Positions 48,178-51,349 of a stretch of DNA of 64,000 nucleotides are shown piece by piece. The stretch covers positions 868,001 through 932,000 of the forward strand of contig NZ_CP050954.1 in the NCBI RefSeq assembly GCF_012273015.1, read 5' to 3'. Each line of letters starts with the position of its first letter. Position 1 is the stretch's first letter. Below the pieces are notes generated by a model. It was given only the letters and a program-made list of their open reading frames with translations, was not told the DNA's origin and did no database searches. A program made the position numbers and the translations under genes. The DNA comes from Hymenobacter sp. BT18 (lineage in GTDB: Bacteria; Bacteroidota; Bacteroidia; Cytophagales; Hymenobacteraceae).

Positions 48178-49473
48178 TTATACATCAGTCCGGGGATTAT
48201 CCTGCTCCCGCGCCATCCGCCGGTGCTTCCCCACCCCAATAATCTGGGCCGAGTAAATGCCCCGATGACCGGAGAACAGGTAGGCTACCACGCAGGCCAG
48301 CCCCAGGTACGCAGCGGCGCCGGCCCCAAACAGCTCCAGGCCCATAAGGGTGCAAGCCAGCGGTGTATTAGCCGCGCCCGCGAAAACGGCTACGAAGCCC
48401 ATAGCCGTGAGCAGGGCCACTGGCAGCGGTAGCACCAGGGCCAGCGCGCTGCCCAGAGTAGCCCCGATGAAAAACAGCGGCGTTACCTCCCCGCCTTTAA
48501 AGCCGCTGCCCAGCGTGAGGGCCGTGAGAGCGAGCTTCCAGGCGAAATCGGTGAGGGCAGCGGGCGCACGGAATGCCTCTACAATAACCGGAATACCTAA
48601 CCCCTGGTAGCGGGTTGTGCCAAAGGCCCAGAGGATGAGCAGCAACAGCCCCCCGCCTACTACGGGCCGCAACGGCGCATACTGAAGGCGGGCAAACTGC
48701 TGACTTATCCAATGCGTGAATGTAGCGAAGGAGCGGGCCGCCAGGCCAAACAGGACCCCAACCAGCAGCGTGCAACCGAAGCCCAGCGGCGTGAGGGGTA
48801 GATTAGTCAGCTGCGGATAGGCCGTGTGCCCCACGCCCCAGCCGCGGGTTACCAAGTCAGCGCTGACGGCGGCCAGAAAGGCTGGCAGCACGGCATCGTA
48901 GCGCATGGAGCCCAGCAGAAATACTTCCAGCCCGAAGACGGCCCCGGCCAGAGGTGTGCCAAACACAGAAGCAAAGCCCGCGCTCATGCCGGCAATTAGC
49001 AGCAGGCGTCGCTCCGGGGGTGGCAGCCGGAGTAGCTTGGTAAGCTGATCGGCCAAGGCCCCACCCATCTGCACGGCCGTGCCCTCCCGCCCCGCCGACC
49101 CGCCCACCAGGTGCGTCAGTAGGGTGCTGCCCAGCACCAGGGGCACCATGCGTAGGGGCAAGACAGTGCGGGGCGAATGGATTTCTTCGAGGATGAGGTT
49201 GTTGCCGCGCCCGGCCCTTTCTCCCCAGTAATGATATGCCAACCCAATTACCAAGCCTGCTACGGGCAGCAGCCCGATTACCCACGGATGCGTTTCCCGC
49301 CAGTGCGTAACCCAATCCAACGACACCAGGAAGAACGCCGATGCCGAGCCCGCCAGCACGCCTACCCCCCCCCCAATCAGGACCCAGCGCAGCAACAGAA
49401 TAGCTACCGCTGAGGCACCAGCCAAGCGCATAGAAGCCAAATATCGGCGAAAAGCAAAAAGGAAACGGGCCAT
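48178..49473 (-). CDS. CLC-family ion transporter, probably a fluoride-type antiporter
   Basis: This 431-residue membrane protein with about 10-12 hydrophobic helices has the CLC core: GGSAGREGTAVQMG with gating E130, and late GSGFKGGEVTPLFFIGA and GFVAVFAGAANTPLACT. At the site where chloride-type CLCs have GSGIP there is GRGNNLILEE (N91, N92), a replacement seen in fluoride/proton CLC-F proteins. The longer frame to 49548 would read through a fluoride-riboswitch-like RNA, so the ATG at 49473 is used. The match between a fluoride-type sequence and a fluoride sensor makes fluoride export the best call, removing toxic fluoride from the cytoplasm. Confidence 0.85.
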   Translation of the reverse strand: MARFLFAFRRYLASMRLAGASAVAILLLRWVLIGGGVGVLAGSASAFFLVSLDWVTHWRETHPWVIGLLPVAGLVIGLAYHYWGERAGRGNNLILEEIHSPRTVLPLRMVPLVLGSTLLTHLVGGSAGREGTAVQMGGALADQLTKLLRLPPPERRLLLIAGMSAGFASVFGTPLAGAVFGLEVFLLGSMRYDAVLPAFLAAVSADLVTRGWGVGHTAYPQLTNLPLTPLGFGCTLLVGVLFGLAARSFATFTHWISQQFARLQYAPLRPVVGGGLLLLILWAFGTTRYQGLGIPVIVEAFRAPAALTDFAWKLALTALTLGSGFKGGEVTPLFFIGATLGSALALVLPLPVALLTAMGFVAVFAGAANTPLACTLMGLELFGAGAAAYLGLACVVAYLFSGHRGIYSAQIIGVGKHRRMAREQDNPRTDV

Positions 49474-49498
49474 AGTGCGCAGTGTAGGATGAAGCACT

Positions 49499-49520
49499 CC
49501 GGCCAGGTTTGCCTGGCCGG
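49499..49520 (-). promoter_or_regulatory. Hairpin of the riboswitch expression platform
   Basis: A perfect 9-bp stem (CCGGCCAGG with CCTGGCCGG, loop of four) lies between the riboswitch core and the CLC start codon. It has no U-run, so it may act on ribosome access or through pairing with the aptamer, not as a simple terminator. Confidence 0.55.
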
Positions 49521-49523
49521 TTT

Positions 49524-49585
49524 CGTAGGAATCATCAGCGCAGAGCAACTGGCCCCGGCGGTTCGCGGTGGAAATCCATCACCGT
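49524..49585 (-). ncRNA. Fluoride riboswitch (crcB motif)
   Basis: Read on the minus strand, the 5' part GGTGATGGATTTCCACC matches the riboswitch pattern GGnGATGGnnTTCnCC, with the 4-bp stem GGTG/CACC closing it. Then come GAACCGCC and, 16 bases on, GCTGATGATTCCTACG, matching the conserved CTGATGnnnCCTAC. GGA of the first part can pair with TCC of the last. It lies 51 bases upstream of a CLC-type transporter start, a known fluoride riboswitch target. A covariance search would confirm it. Confidence 0.85.
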
Positions 49586-49663
49586 ACGCGGGGCGAAGAT
49601 ACGCAGCCGGCCCAACTCCTATACAAGGCTTGTGCCTTACGGAGCGTCCGGGGTGGGTATTGG

Positions 49664-51349
49664 CTAGGCTTTTCGCTCCCGCCGGGTACCTAAAATGAGG
49701 AGAACCAGCAGCAGAAATGCCGTGATGCCCAGCCCCCACCACGTGATGCCGGGTAGGCCGCGGTAGTAGGGCATGGTAGTCGGGTAGCGCCCCAGCAAGC
49801 TTAGCCCCGAAAACAGCAGAAACGCCACGGCTAACAGGGCAATAATCGTTCTGGAGACCAGCTGGTCGGCCTTGCGCAAAAGCAACAGGTAGCCGCTCAG
49901 CTCCACCTTCACGCGCAAATCACCCCGGGAGACCTTGCGCATGATCTGGCGGATGTCGGCCGGAAAGGTCTGCAGCAAGGCCAGCAACTGGGTGCCGGTG
50001 TACTCGGCTTCGCTGAGGATGTTCTCGGGCGAGTACTGCTCGGCAATGATGCGCGCCCCGTAGGGCCGCACAAACTCAAAGGTATTGAACCGGGGGTGCA
50101 GCACTTTGCCAATGCCTTCCAGAATCACTAGCGCCCGCAGAATCAGGAACACCGCGCCGGGCACCTGCAGCTTGTACTTGTAGATGACTTCTTGCAAGGC
50201 ATCGGCCAGGTCGCTCATGCTCATGTCCTGCACATCGAGTGTGGAGAAGTCCTCAATCAGGTCGCTTAGGTCCGACTCGAAGGCGCGCATGTCGGGAATG
50301 TCGCTGGTCAGGGCCAGGCGACGGAAGCTTAGGGCCATGCCCCGGGCATCTTGCCGGGCCATGCCAATGAACACGCCCGCAAAAGCATATTTCTGCTGCT
50401 TAGTGAGCTTGCCCACCATGCCAAAGTCGATGAGCACGATGGTGCCATCGGGGCGCACCAGCACGTTGCCGGGGTGAGGGTCGGCGTGAAAGCGGCCAAA
50501 CTCGAATATCTGGGTGAGGTAGATATCCATGCCGGTTTCGGCCACTTTTTCCGAGTTCAAGCCCCAGGCCTGCAGCTGGGCCTTGTCGGTAATCTTGCAG
50601 CCGGCCACAAACTCAATCACCAGCACTTTGGTGGTGCTGACTTCCCGGAAGGGCTTGGGAATGTAGAAGCTTTCGTACTGCTCATAGAGCTTGCGAAACT
50701 GCTCCAAGTTGCGGGCCTCGGAGGTGTAGTCCATTTCCCGGGTCATGCTCCGCTCAAAAGCATCCACGATGTCTTCGGGGTTGGCCAAGCCCTGCTTGCG
50801 CAGGAAGCCGCTGGTCAGGCGCACCAGCTCGTGCAGCAAGCTAAGGTCAGTGCGCACTTTTTCCTGCACATCGGGGCGCTGTACTTTCACTACCACTTCT
50901 TCCCCGGTAAGCAGCTTGGCTTTGTGCACCTGCCCAATGCTGGCCGAGCCCAGGGGCACTTCCTCAAAATCACTGAACAGGTTTTCCAAGGGCTGCCCCA
51001 GCTCCTGCTCGATGATCTGCCGGGCCAGCGCCACCGGGAAGGGGGGCACATTGCTTTGCAGCTTCTCAAACTCGTCAATCAGCGGCTGCGGCAACAGGTC
51101 GGCGCGGTTGCTCAGGGCCTGGGCCAGCTTGATGAAGGTGGGTCCCAGCTCCTCGATGATCATCCGAATCCGCTCCCAGCGCGTGGTTTCAAACACGGGG
51201 CGCTCGGCGTGTTGCCAGGTCAGGCGACGCTTGCTGGATACCAGGCGCCGCAGGGCCGTACTGGTTACTACGTCTTCGAAGCCGTAGCGCACCAGCACTT
51301 CCACTACCTGCCGGATGCGGCCCAGATTGGATATCGTATTTTTAAACAT
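49664..51349 (-). CDS. ABC1/AarF/UbiB-family atypical kinase
   Basis: The 561-residue protein has the UbiB fold: ELGPTFIKLAQALSNRADLLP (KxGQ-type, here KLAQ), SIGQVHKAKLLTGEEVVVKVQRP with the ATP-binding Lys, REMDYTSEARNLEQF, and HADPHPGNVLV followed by VLIDFGM. Two C-terminal membrane helices (~500-522 and ~533-553) anchor it. In bacteria the family supports quinone biosynthesis. This species probably uses menaquinone (menC lies at 55.9 kb), so the exact target is open. It is upstream of the riboswitch and transcribed on the same strand; the two genes are probably separate units. Confidence 0.92.
   Translation of the reverse strand: MFKNTISNLGRIRQVVEVLVRYGFEDVVTSTALRRLVSSKRRLTWQHAERPVFETTRWERIRMIIEELGPTFIKLAQALSNRADLLPQPLIDEFEKLQSNVPPFPVALARQIIEQELGQPLENLFSDFEEVPLGSASIGQVHKAKLLTGEEVVVKVQRPDVQEKVRTDLSLLHELVRLTSGFLRKQGLANPEDIVDAFERSMTREMDYTSEARNLEQFRKLYEQYESFYIPKPFREVSTTKVLVIEFVAGCKITDKAQLQAWGLNSEKVAETGMDIYLTQIFEFGRFHADPHPGNVLVRPDGTIVLIDFGMVGKLTKQQKYAFAGVFIGMARQDARGMALSFRRLALTSDIPDMRAFESDLSDLIEDFSTLDVQDMSMSDLADALQEVIYKYKLQVPGAVFLILRALVILEGIGKVLHPRFNTFEFVRPYGARIIAEQYSPENILSEAEYTGTQLLALLQTFPADIRQIMRKVSRGDLRVKVELSGYLLLLRKADQLVSRTIIALLAVAFLLFSGLSLLGRYPTTMPYYRGLPGITWWGLGITAFLLLVLLILGTRRERKA

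Follow-up and report, generated by a model that had tools for sequence, protein, structure and literature searches.

At this locus a gene of the CLC family stands directly behind a stretch of minus-strand sequence that resembles the crcB fluoride riboswitch, which raises the question of whether a fluoride exporter is controlled here by fluoride itself and, if so, through what kind of expression platform. The window referred to throughout is the whole stretch of 64,000 nucleotides that was analyzed, and its features are collected in Table 1. An earlier note on this DNA had read the locus as a fluoride riboswitch ahead of a CLC-F-like transporter, and that reading is supported by the RF01734 match, the CLC-F scores, and the sequence motifs described below. 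It is very probable that the locus constitutes a fluoride ON-switch controlling a CLC-F fluoride exporter, an assessment which covers the switch and the exporter and excludes the step of start-site sequestration.

Table 1. Features of the riboswitch–transporter locus, in window coordinates
Feature	Position	Strand	Basis
CLC-F fluoride/proton antiporter gene, 431 aa	48178..49473	-	Pfam, structure-database scores, motifs
GCGCA, ending 2 nt ahead of the ATG, predicted partner UGCGC 49538-49542	49476..49480	-	MFE fold
TCATC, complement of aptamer GATGA	49488..49492	-	MFE fold
Upstream in-frame TTG (49548) and GTG (49497), which would yield false N-termini	49497..49548	-	
Post-aptamer hairpin CCGGCCAGG-CAAA-CCTGGCCGG, no T-run after	49499..49520	-	predicted fold
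Fluoride riboswitch aptamer (RF01734)	49519..49592	-	cmscan, over gathering score
GATGA, aptamer 3'-strand, predicted partner TCATC 49488-49492 in unbound form	49532..49536	-	MFE fold
UGCGC, aptamer P2 region, predicted partner GCGCA 49476-49480	49538..49542	-	single-sequence MFE fold
GGGCCA, aptamer P2 region, predicted partner UGGCCC 49467-49472	49550..49555	-	single-sequence MFE fold
Putative promoter -7 box TATCTTCG	49594..49601	-	sequence; one base off TAnnTTTG
Possible -33 TTG, 22 nt ahead of -7 box	49624..49626	-	sequence alone

The Aptamer and the Transporter Gene

The covariance search that the earlier note had proposed returned a significant match to RF01734 at 49592-49519 of the minus strand, with a score of 41.8 bits (E 3.4e-8; cmscan of the 64 kb window) against a gathering score of 34 and an alignment that spans all 64 model positions. 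RF01734 alone exceeds its gathering score among the Rfam matches in the window, and no second fluoride riboswitch was found anywhere in the genome of 4.69 Mb. The conserved core (GAUGG, AACCGC, and UGAUGA..CCUAC) is present and intact in the cmscan alignment, and the four motifs that had been reported in order, GGTGATGG, TTCCACC, AACCGCC, and CTGATGATTCCTACG, are indeed found on the minus strand. The interval given for the element at that time, 49473-49585, reaches the start codon of the gene and begins 7 bases inside the RF01734 match. With 45 nt between the aptamer match and the start codon of a fluoride-related gene, the window copy shares with the crcB motif its full-length match, its conserved core, and its position directly before a fluoride exporter gene, and it differs in that its leader carries no T-run terminator. 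A second difference concerns the pseudoknot strands, which are GGAGUU/GACUCC in the RF01734 model, whereas among the 85 unique leaders (those left after removing duplicates and L111, which contains an N) GGAUUU/GAUUCC is found in 48 and GGAUUG/GAUUCC in 5, so that the window aptamer and 52 of the other 84 share one or the other combination (53/85). On the pairing scheme that we assume, these strands would set U against U at a pseudoknot position for which the Rfam consensus allows a G-C pair.

By its sequence, the gene behind the aptamer is a CLC-F and not a chloride CLC. The protein contains a Voltage_CLC domain (PF00654; 234.8 bits in Pfam), and its top match among solved structures is the CLC-F antiporter 6D0J with 211.9 bits, against 38.6 bits for the best chloride exchanger, ClcA; the clear clustering with chloride-type CLCs, which the earlier note had named as the outcome that would speak against its reading, is thus not seen in this bit-score comparison. 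Two further CLC genes were found in the genome, and for the one of these paralogues that was compared against solved structures the order is reversed, the top chloride-type chain reaching 102.8 bits and 6D0J 56.7. GNNLI at residue 90, GREGT at 128, and GEVTP at 328 are all three present in the window protein, the CLC-F signatures named in the available part of a review being GNNLI/GMGLI, GREGT/V, and GEVTP (PMC11139923), and counting from the ATG at 49473 places N91 and N92 (in GNNLI) and E130 (in GREGT) just where they had been assigned before. The window protein likewise has the GREGT/V and GEVTP motifs and the gating glutamate of 6D0J, which comes from Enterococcus casseliflavus, and differs from it in being of the GNNLI type, 6D0J having Met at the first of the two selectivity positions (GMNL in the alignment). 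Both N-type and M-type selectivity motifs are recorded for CLC-F in the text available of the same review (PMC11139923); a literature search on CLC-F with methionine found nothing.

The alternative that the gene encodes a chloride-type CLC, with the RNA match being due to chance or serving another gene, draws on the fact that NCBIfam offers ClcA/ClcB-type models alone, although the window protein falls far below the cut-offs of all of these. It is contradicted by the CLC-F signatures and the structure-database scores, and also by the co-occurrence of aptamer and CLC-F in relatives (85 of 91 cases, as detailed below), and with the RF01734 and 6D0J scores given above it was rejected for the window as exceedingly improbable. 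No match to CrcB/Fluc was found in the genome, which agrees with the near-exclusivity of the two exporter types, CrcB and CLC-F exporters being usually mutually exclusive according to the part of the review available (PMC11139923). With one CLC-F and no CrcB, the sole dedicated fluoride exporter found in this genome thus sits under a fluoride riboswitch.

Start Codon and Promoter

The ATG at 49473 is likely, on comparison with related sequences, to be the true start of the gene, because an in-frame stop lies between aptamer and start in 44 of the 75 relatives with an assigned start and because the distance from aptamer match to start is 43-53 nt in 67 of these 75, their starts having been picked near the site extrapolated from the protein match. 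In the window, the CLC-F frame stays open upstream as far as 49578 and no further, and the longest reading frame with a start codon, of 456 aa, begins at the TTG at 49548 within the aptamer. The statement that the longest frame would translate the riboswitch therefore holds for the last 30 nt of the aptamer and not for the whole of it, and the accompanying warning about a false N-terminus in automated calls was a fair one. The start at 49473 and the assignment to CLC-F rather than ClcB are results that can be used directly in annotation.

The -7 box consensus of the Bacteroidota is TAnnTTTG. It was found no more than 35 nt upstream of P1 in 42/85 unique leaders as compared with 1/85 control windows taken further upstream, and the variant TAnnTTYG, which fits the window box, in 53/85. 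Judging by this promoter-like box, the transcript probably begins at or near the 5' edge of the aptamer. The upstream neighbor on the same strand is an ABC1/UbiB-type kinase gene (49664-51349, minus strand; Pfam ABC1, 267.8 bits), and since the terminator scan found no terminator-like site between this gene and the riboswitch, read-through from it into the riboswitch is possible.

Occurrence in Related Genomes

RF01734 was matched at E 0.001 in 84 of the 200 family genomes sampled (over cut-off in 78), and among 120 genomes of the genus the corresponding numbers are 55 and 52. Seven of the 98 aptamer matches listed were left out as weak or second matches (G172, G194, the plus-strand match of G013, G105, G099, G101, and G181), and a CLC-F match was found at most 2,200 nt downstream of 85 of the 91 whose surroundings were read, the CLC-F being distant from the aptamer in three of them (about 200 nt in L065 and L082 and about 1,700 nt in L083). 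Scanning the contigs of genomes turned up 47 loci encoding relatives, of which 30 have an aptamer over cut-off, with L008 just under it at 32.0 bits; GNNL/GMGL is present in 45 of the 47 (absent from L041 and L048) and GREG together with GEVTP in 46 (absent from L048). For the paralogues L079 and L080, the pattern search gave neither CLC-F nor GSGIP motifs, a result which says little about either. Those relatives of the gene that carry a name are for the most part Hymenobacter, which points to this genus for the window as well. What the sequences themselves show is an aptamer match right beside a gene identified as CLC-F, in an arrangement that is conserved.

Riboswitch-controlled CLC antiporters were reportedly the subject of Stockbridge et al. 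2012, to judge by its title. By that title and the review, their system has the same RNA–protein arrangement as the one described here, the difference being that the platform here has no T-run terminator. The pairing of riboswitch and CLC-F is already published, as the available part of the review indicates (PMC11139923), and it is common in the family.

Five aptamers with the same leader design, spread over four genomes of the genus, have no CLC-F match in the 1,500-2,200 nt downstream (L068, L069, and L077, for each of which the stretch covered was 1,500 nt, and L087 and L093). Behind L087 come genes for a small protein that has no match in Pfam, for a protein with an SdiA-regulated domain, and for a PAP2 phosphatase, and L093 is followed by a gene for a PAP2 phosphatase and by one whose product matches S1/P1 nuclease below cut-off; a literature search combining fluoride riboswitch and PAP2 found no paper. 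In another genus of the family, the gene that follows the L070 aptamer is of the Major Facilitator type, and no CLC-F match was found within 1,500 nt downstream of this aptamer. Sub-cut-off matches to AaHKsRNA41 were seen just after CLC-F genes in L022 (3346-3439), L035 (3319-3412), and L036 (3217-3392), on both strands in the latter two, and perhaps represent a repeated palindromic element.

L012, whose protein at 79% identity is the closest of the 47 relatives to that of the window gene, carries an aptamer with substitutions in P1 and the core. In L014 as in L012 a degenerate fluoride aptamer can still be made out ahead of an open CLC-F gene, neither copy being matched at E 0.1. These two cases, along with the missing GUUCGC box of the window leader (see below), could be taken to mean that the window aptamer is itself decaying and the gene expressed constitutively; that is very unlikely, given an aptamer which scores over cut-off with its core bases intact.

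Expression Platform of the Window Copy

While the pairing of RNA and gene is known, what is less familiar is the expression platform in this group. A literature search on the fluoride riboswitch in Bacteroidetes or Hymenobacter, limited to titles and abstract openings, found no paper on this platform. As stated in the accessible part of another source, the fluoride model was built from terminator-bearing sequences and a search with all variants added nothing new (PMC13273304).

The predicted fold of 49592-49455 has an energy of -49.9 kcal/mol (z -2.05), with 7 of 200 shuffles being as good. In this minimum-energy structure, three strands of the aptamer would be borrowed by the sequence downstream (Table 1), and the UGGCCC at 49467-49472 includes two bases of the AUG, both of them paired. 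The probability that GATGA pairs downstream is 0.84 in the window as against 0.28 in shuffles, a value reached by 1 of 40 of these. Computed as free duplex energy, pairing of the aptamer 3' strand with the sequence behind it is no better than in shuffles (91/200 as good), forcing the aptamer to form lowers the accessibility of the window start region from 0.46 to 0.26, and the GUUCGC box seen in related leaders is absent.

A transcriptional explanation has to be weighed at this point, in which the hairpin extended by the GATGA/TCATC pairing would act as a terminator or pause in the absence of fluoride, making the element an ON-switch like the characterized riboswitches of B. cereus and T. petrophila. 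The long predicted stem borrows the aptamer 3' strand just as published terminators do, according to the part of the source available (PMC13273304), and within the genus nine unique leaders (L073, L084, L085, L095, L096, L099, L107, L108, and L125) show, immediately downstream of the same aptamer, a G+C hairpin with a T-run behind it, with at least 5 T in seven of the nine by pattern. The strong hairpin of the window leader, however, has no T-run after it, the terminator scan of 49300-49800 gave 0 sites, on which ground a T-run terminator was rejected for the window, and the paired flank TCATC ends 14 nt short of the start codon. Termination is accordingly considered unlikely here, though far from negligible.

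Complementarity and Accessibility across Leaders

The other reading, that the start-codon region would be sequestered by aptamer strands, was compared across leaders. No T-run follows the post-aptamer hairpin in 47 of the 57 unique leaders of the genus, the window included, and the 47-leader set comprises unique leaders that have the aptamer end TTCC[TC][AG]C and no GGTTTT within 70 nt, T-run types being excluded by design. Since seven or more rows of the MAFFT alignment had the GUUCGC box in the wrong place, complements were counted on unaligned sequences. The hexamer at aptamer offset 14, which is GCGAAC in 43 of the 47, has a perfect downstream complement in 30 leaders (14 of 20 clusters), where mononucleotide shuffles predict 1.5, and with G-U pairs allowed in 37 leaders (18 of 20 clusters) versus 4.6 expected. 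When the hexamer is slid along the aptamer, this offset forms the one dominant peak of perfect complements, with smaller peaks at the neighboring offset (CGCGAA, 9 vs 1.5 expected) and at TGATGA (8 vs 0.1; 23 vs 7.4 with G-U). GATGGA also has complements with G-U in 25/47 leaders versus 8.3 expected, which we attribute to the one TCATC box being matched by a second, similar strand; exact TCATC occurs in 36/47 leaders and, with G-U, in 43/47, a pentamer count made without a shuffle control. One leader, L139, is changed on both sides, having GCGAGC in the aptamer and a GCTCGC box, and is a single case.

Energy-based tests gave a mixed picture. Downstream pairing of GATGA has a mean probability of 0.76 versus 0.39 in shuffles over 64 of the 85 leaders, the other 21 being skipped because their aptamer-end pattern did not fit. 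Over all leaders, duplex formation between the aptamer 3' strand and the downstream sequence is only slightly more favorable than in shuffles (mean z -0.61 over 85 leaders, with at most 10/200 shuffles as good in 15 of them; mean z -0.54 over 43 cluster representatives, 5 of them at that level), in a free duplex test that ignores the intervening hairpin, and this near-flat result counts against pairing of the aptamer 3' strand. Forcing the aptamer raises the mean accessibility of the start region from 0.42 to 0.49, with a gain in 51 of 76 leaders and, by cluster, in 28 of 37 (Wilcoxon p 0.0007), both without a shuffled control, and that of the start codon itself is unchanged (0.39 to 0.38; 76 leaders). 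The 76 are what is left of the unique leaders once five that have no CLC-F and four whose offsets are odd (L055, L065, L082, and L083) are taken out, and they include L124 with its misassigned start at 251.

It has to be noted that the box is also found where the aptamer is not. Of the 14 CLC-F loci listed without an Rfam aptamer, 8 have TTCGC immediately ahead of the start codon (L022, L023, L024, L027, L028, L033, L035, and L036, none with an aptamer at E 0.1), and L014, with its degenerate aptamer, is a ninth locus that has it; because those eight keep it, the box may have another, aptamer-independent role. ATCATC is also retained before the start in L023 and L036, which suggests, as far as sequence can tell, a recent loss of the aptamer. 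The GTTCGC box occurs moreover in L068, L077, L087, and L093, leaders before genes other than CLC-F, and is therefore not limited to a CLC-F context. Among the 38 leaders of other types, of which other genera contribute 28, there is no excess at the GCGAAC position (1 observed, 0.8 expected; with G-U, 2 versus 4.7) and a mild excess for the 3' strand (CTGATG with G-U in 18/38 versus 7.5). Eight leaders from another genus or genera of the family (L050, L051, L052, L060, L063, L071, L072, and L138) have a -7-like TATATTTG between aptamer and start, and directly after it comes a complement, complete or nearly so, of the aptamer strand GCTGATGAC or GCTGATAAC.

Model of Control and Its Meaning

By analogy with known families, the aptamer would bind fluoride, the switch would act in the ON direction, and the protein would transport fluoride. 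A rise in cytoplasmic fluoride would lead the aptamer to fold around a Mg-fluoride cluster, the folded aptamer would permit expression of the CLC-F antiporter gene downstream, and the antiporter would expel fluoride in exchange for protons. Without fluoride, the leader would refold, its aptamer strands pairing with the flank of the hairpin and with the region of the start codon, and in this form it would block the initiation of translation. The phylum is described, in the available part of the source, as one without Shine-Dalgarno sequences in which initiation is tuned by structure (PMC6847099), and the downstream complements of aptamer strands near the start codon suggest, on predicted pairing, a sequestration of the start site that would operate without a Shine-Dalgarno sequence.

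The evidence for such sequestration is mixed overall and weak for the window copy. Because of the counter-results, namely the window leader without GUUCGC, the nearly flat duplex energies, the mixed accessibility, the TTCGC boxes of loci without an aptamer, and the leaders of other types, the refolding onto hairpin flank and start region that would block initiation is put at roughly even odds for the group, with the window copy rated lower. All of this counter-evidence concerns the platform and not the switch or the exporter.

A fuller and more tentative proposal, which we hold to be rather more doubtful than probable, is that the Hymenobacter switch is translational without a Shine-Dalgarno sequence, that two core strands of the unbound aptamer, GCGAAC (between P1 and P2) and GAUGA, would be borrowed by the start-adjacent GUUCGC and UCAUC, and that, within one genus, intrinsic terminators have come to replace this platform while aptamer and kind of gene stayed the same. 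Given the nine leaders with a T-run, sequestration and terminator platforms may exist side by side in the genus. If sequestration proves true, the genus would offer a natural comparison of translational and transcriptional platforms on one aptamer, in bacteria that do without the Shine-Dalgarno sequence.
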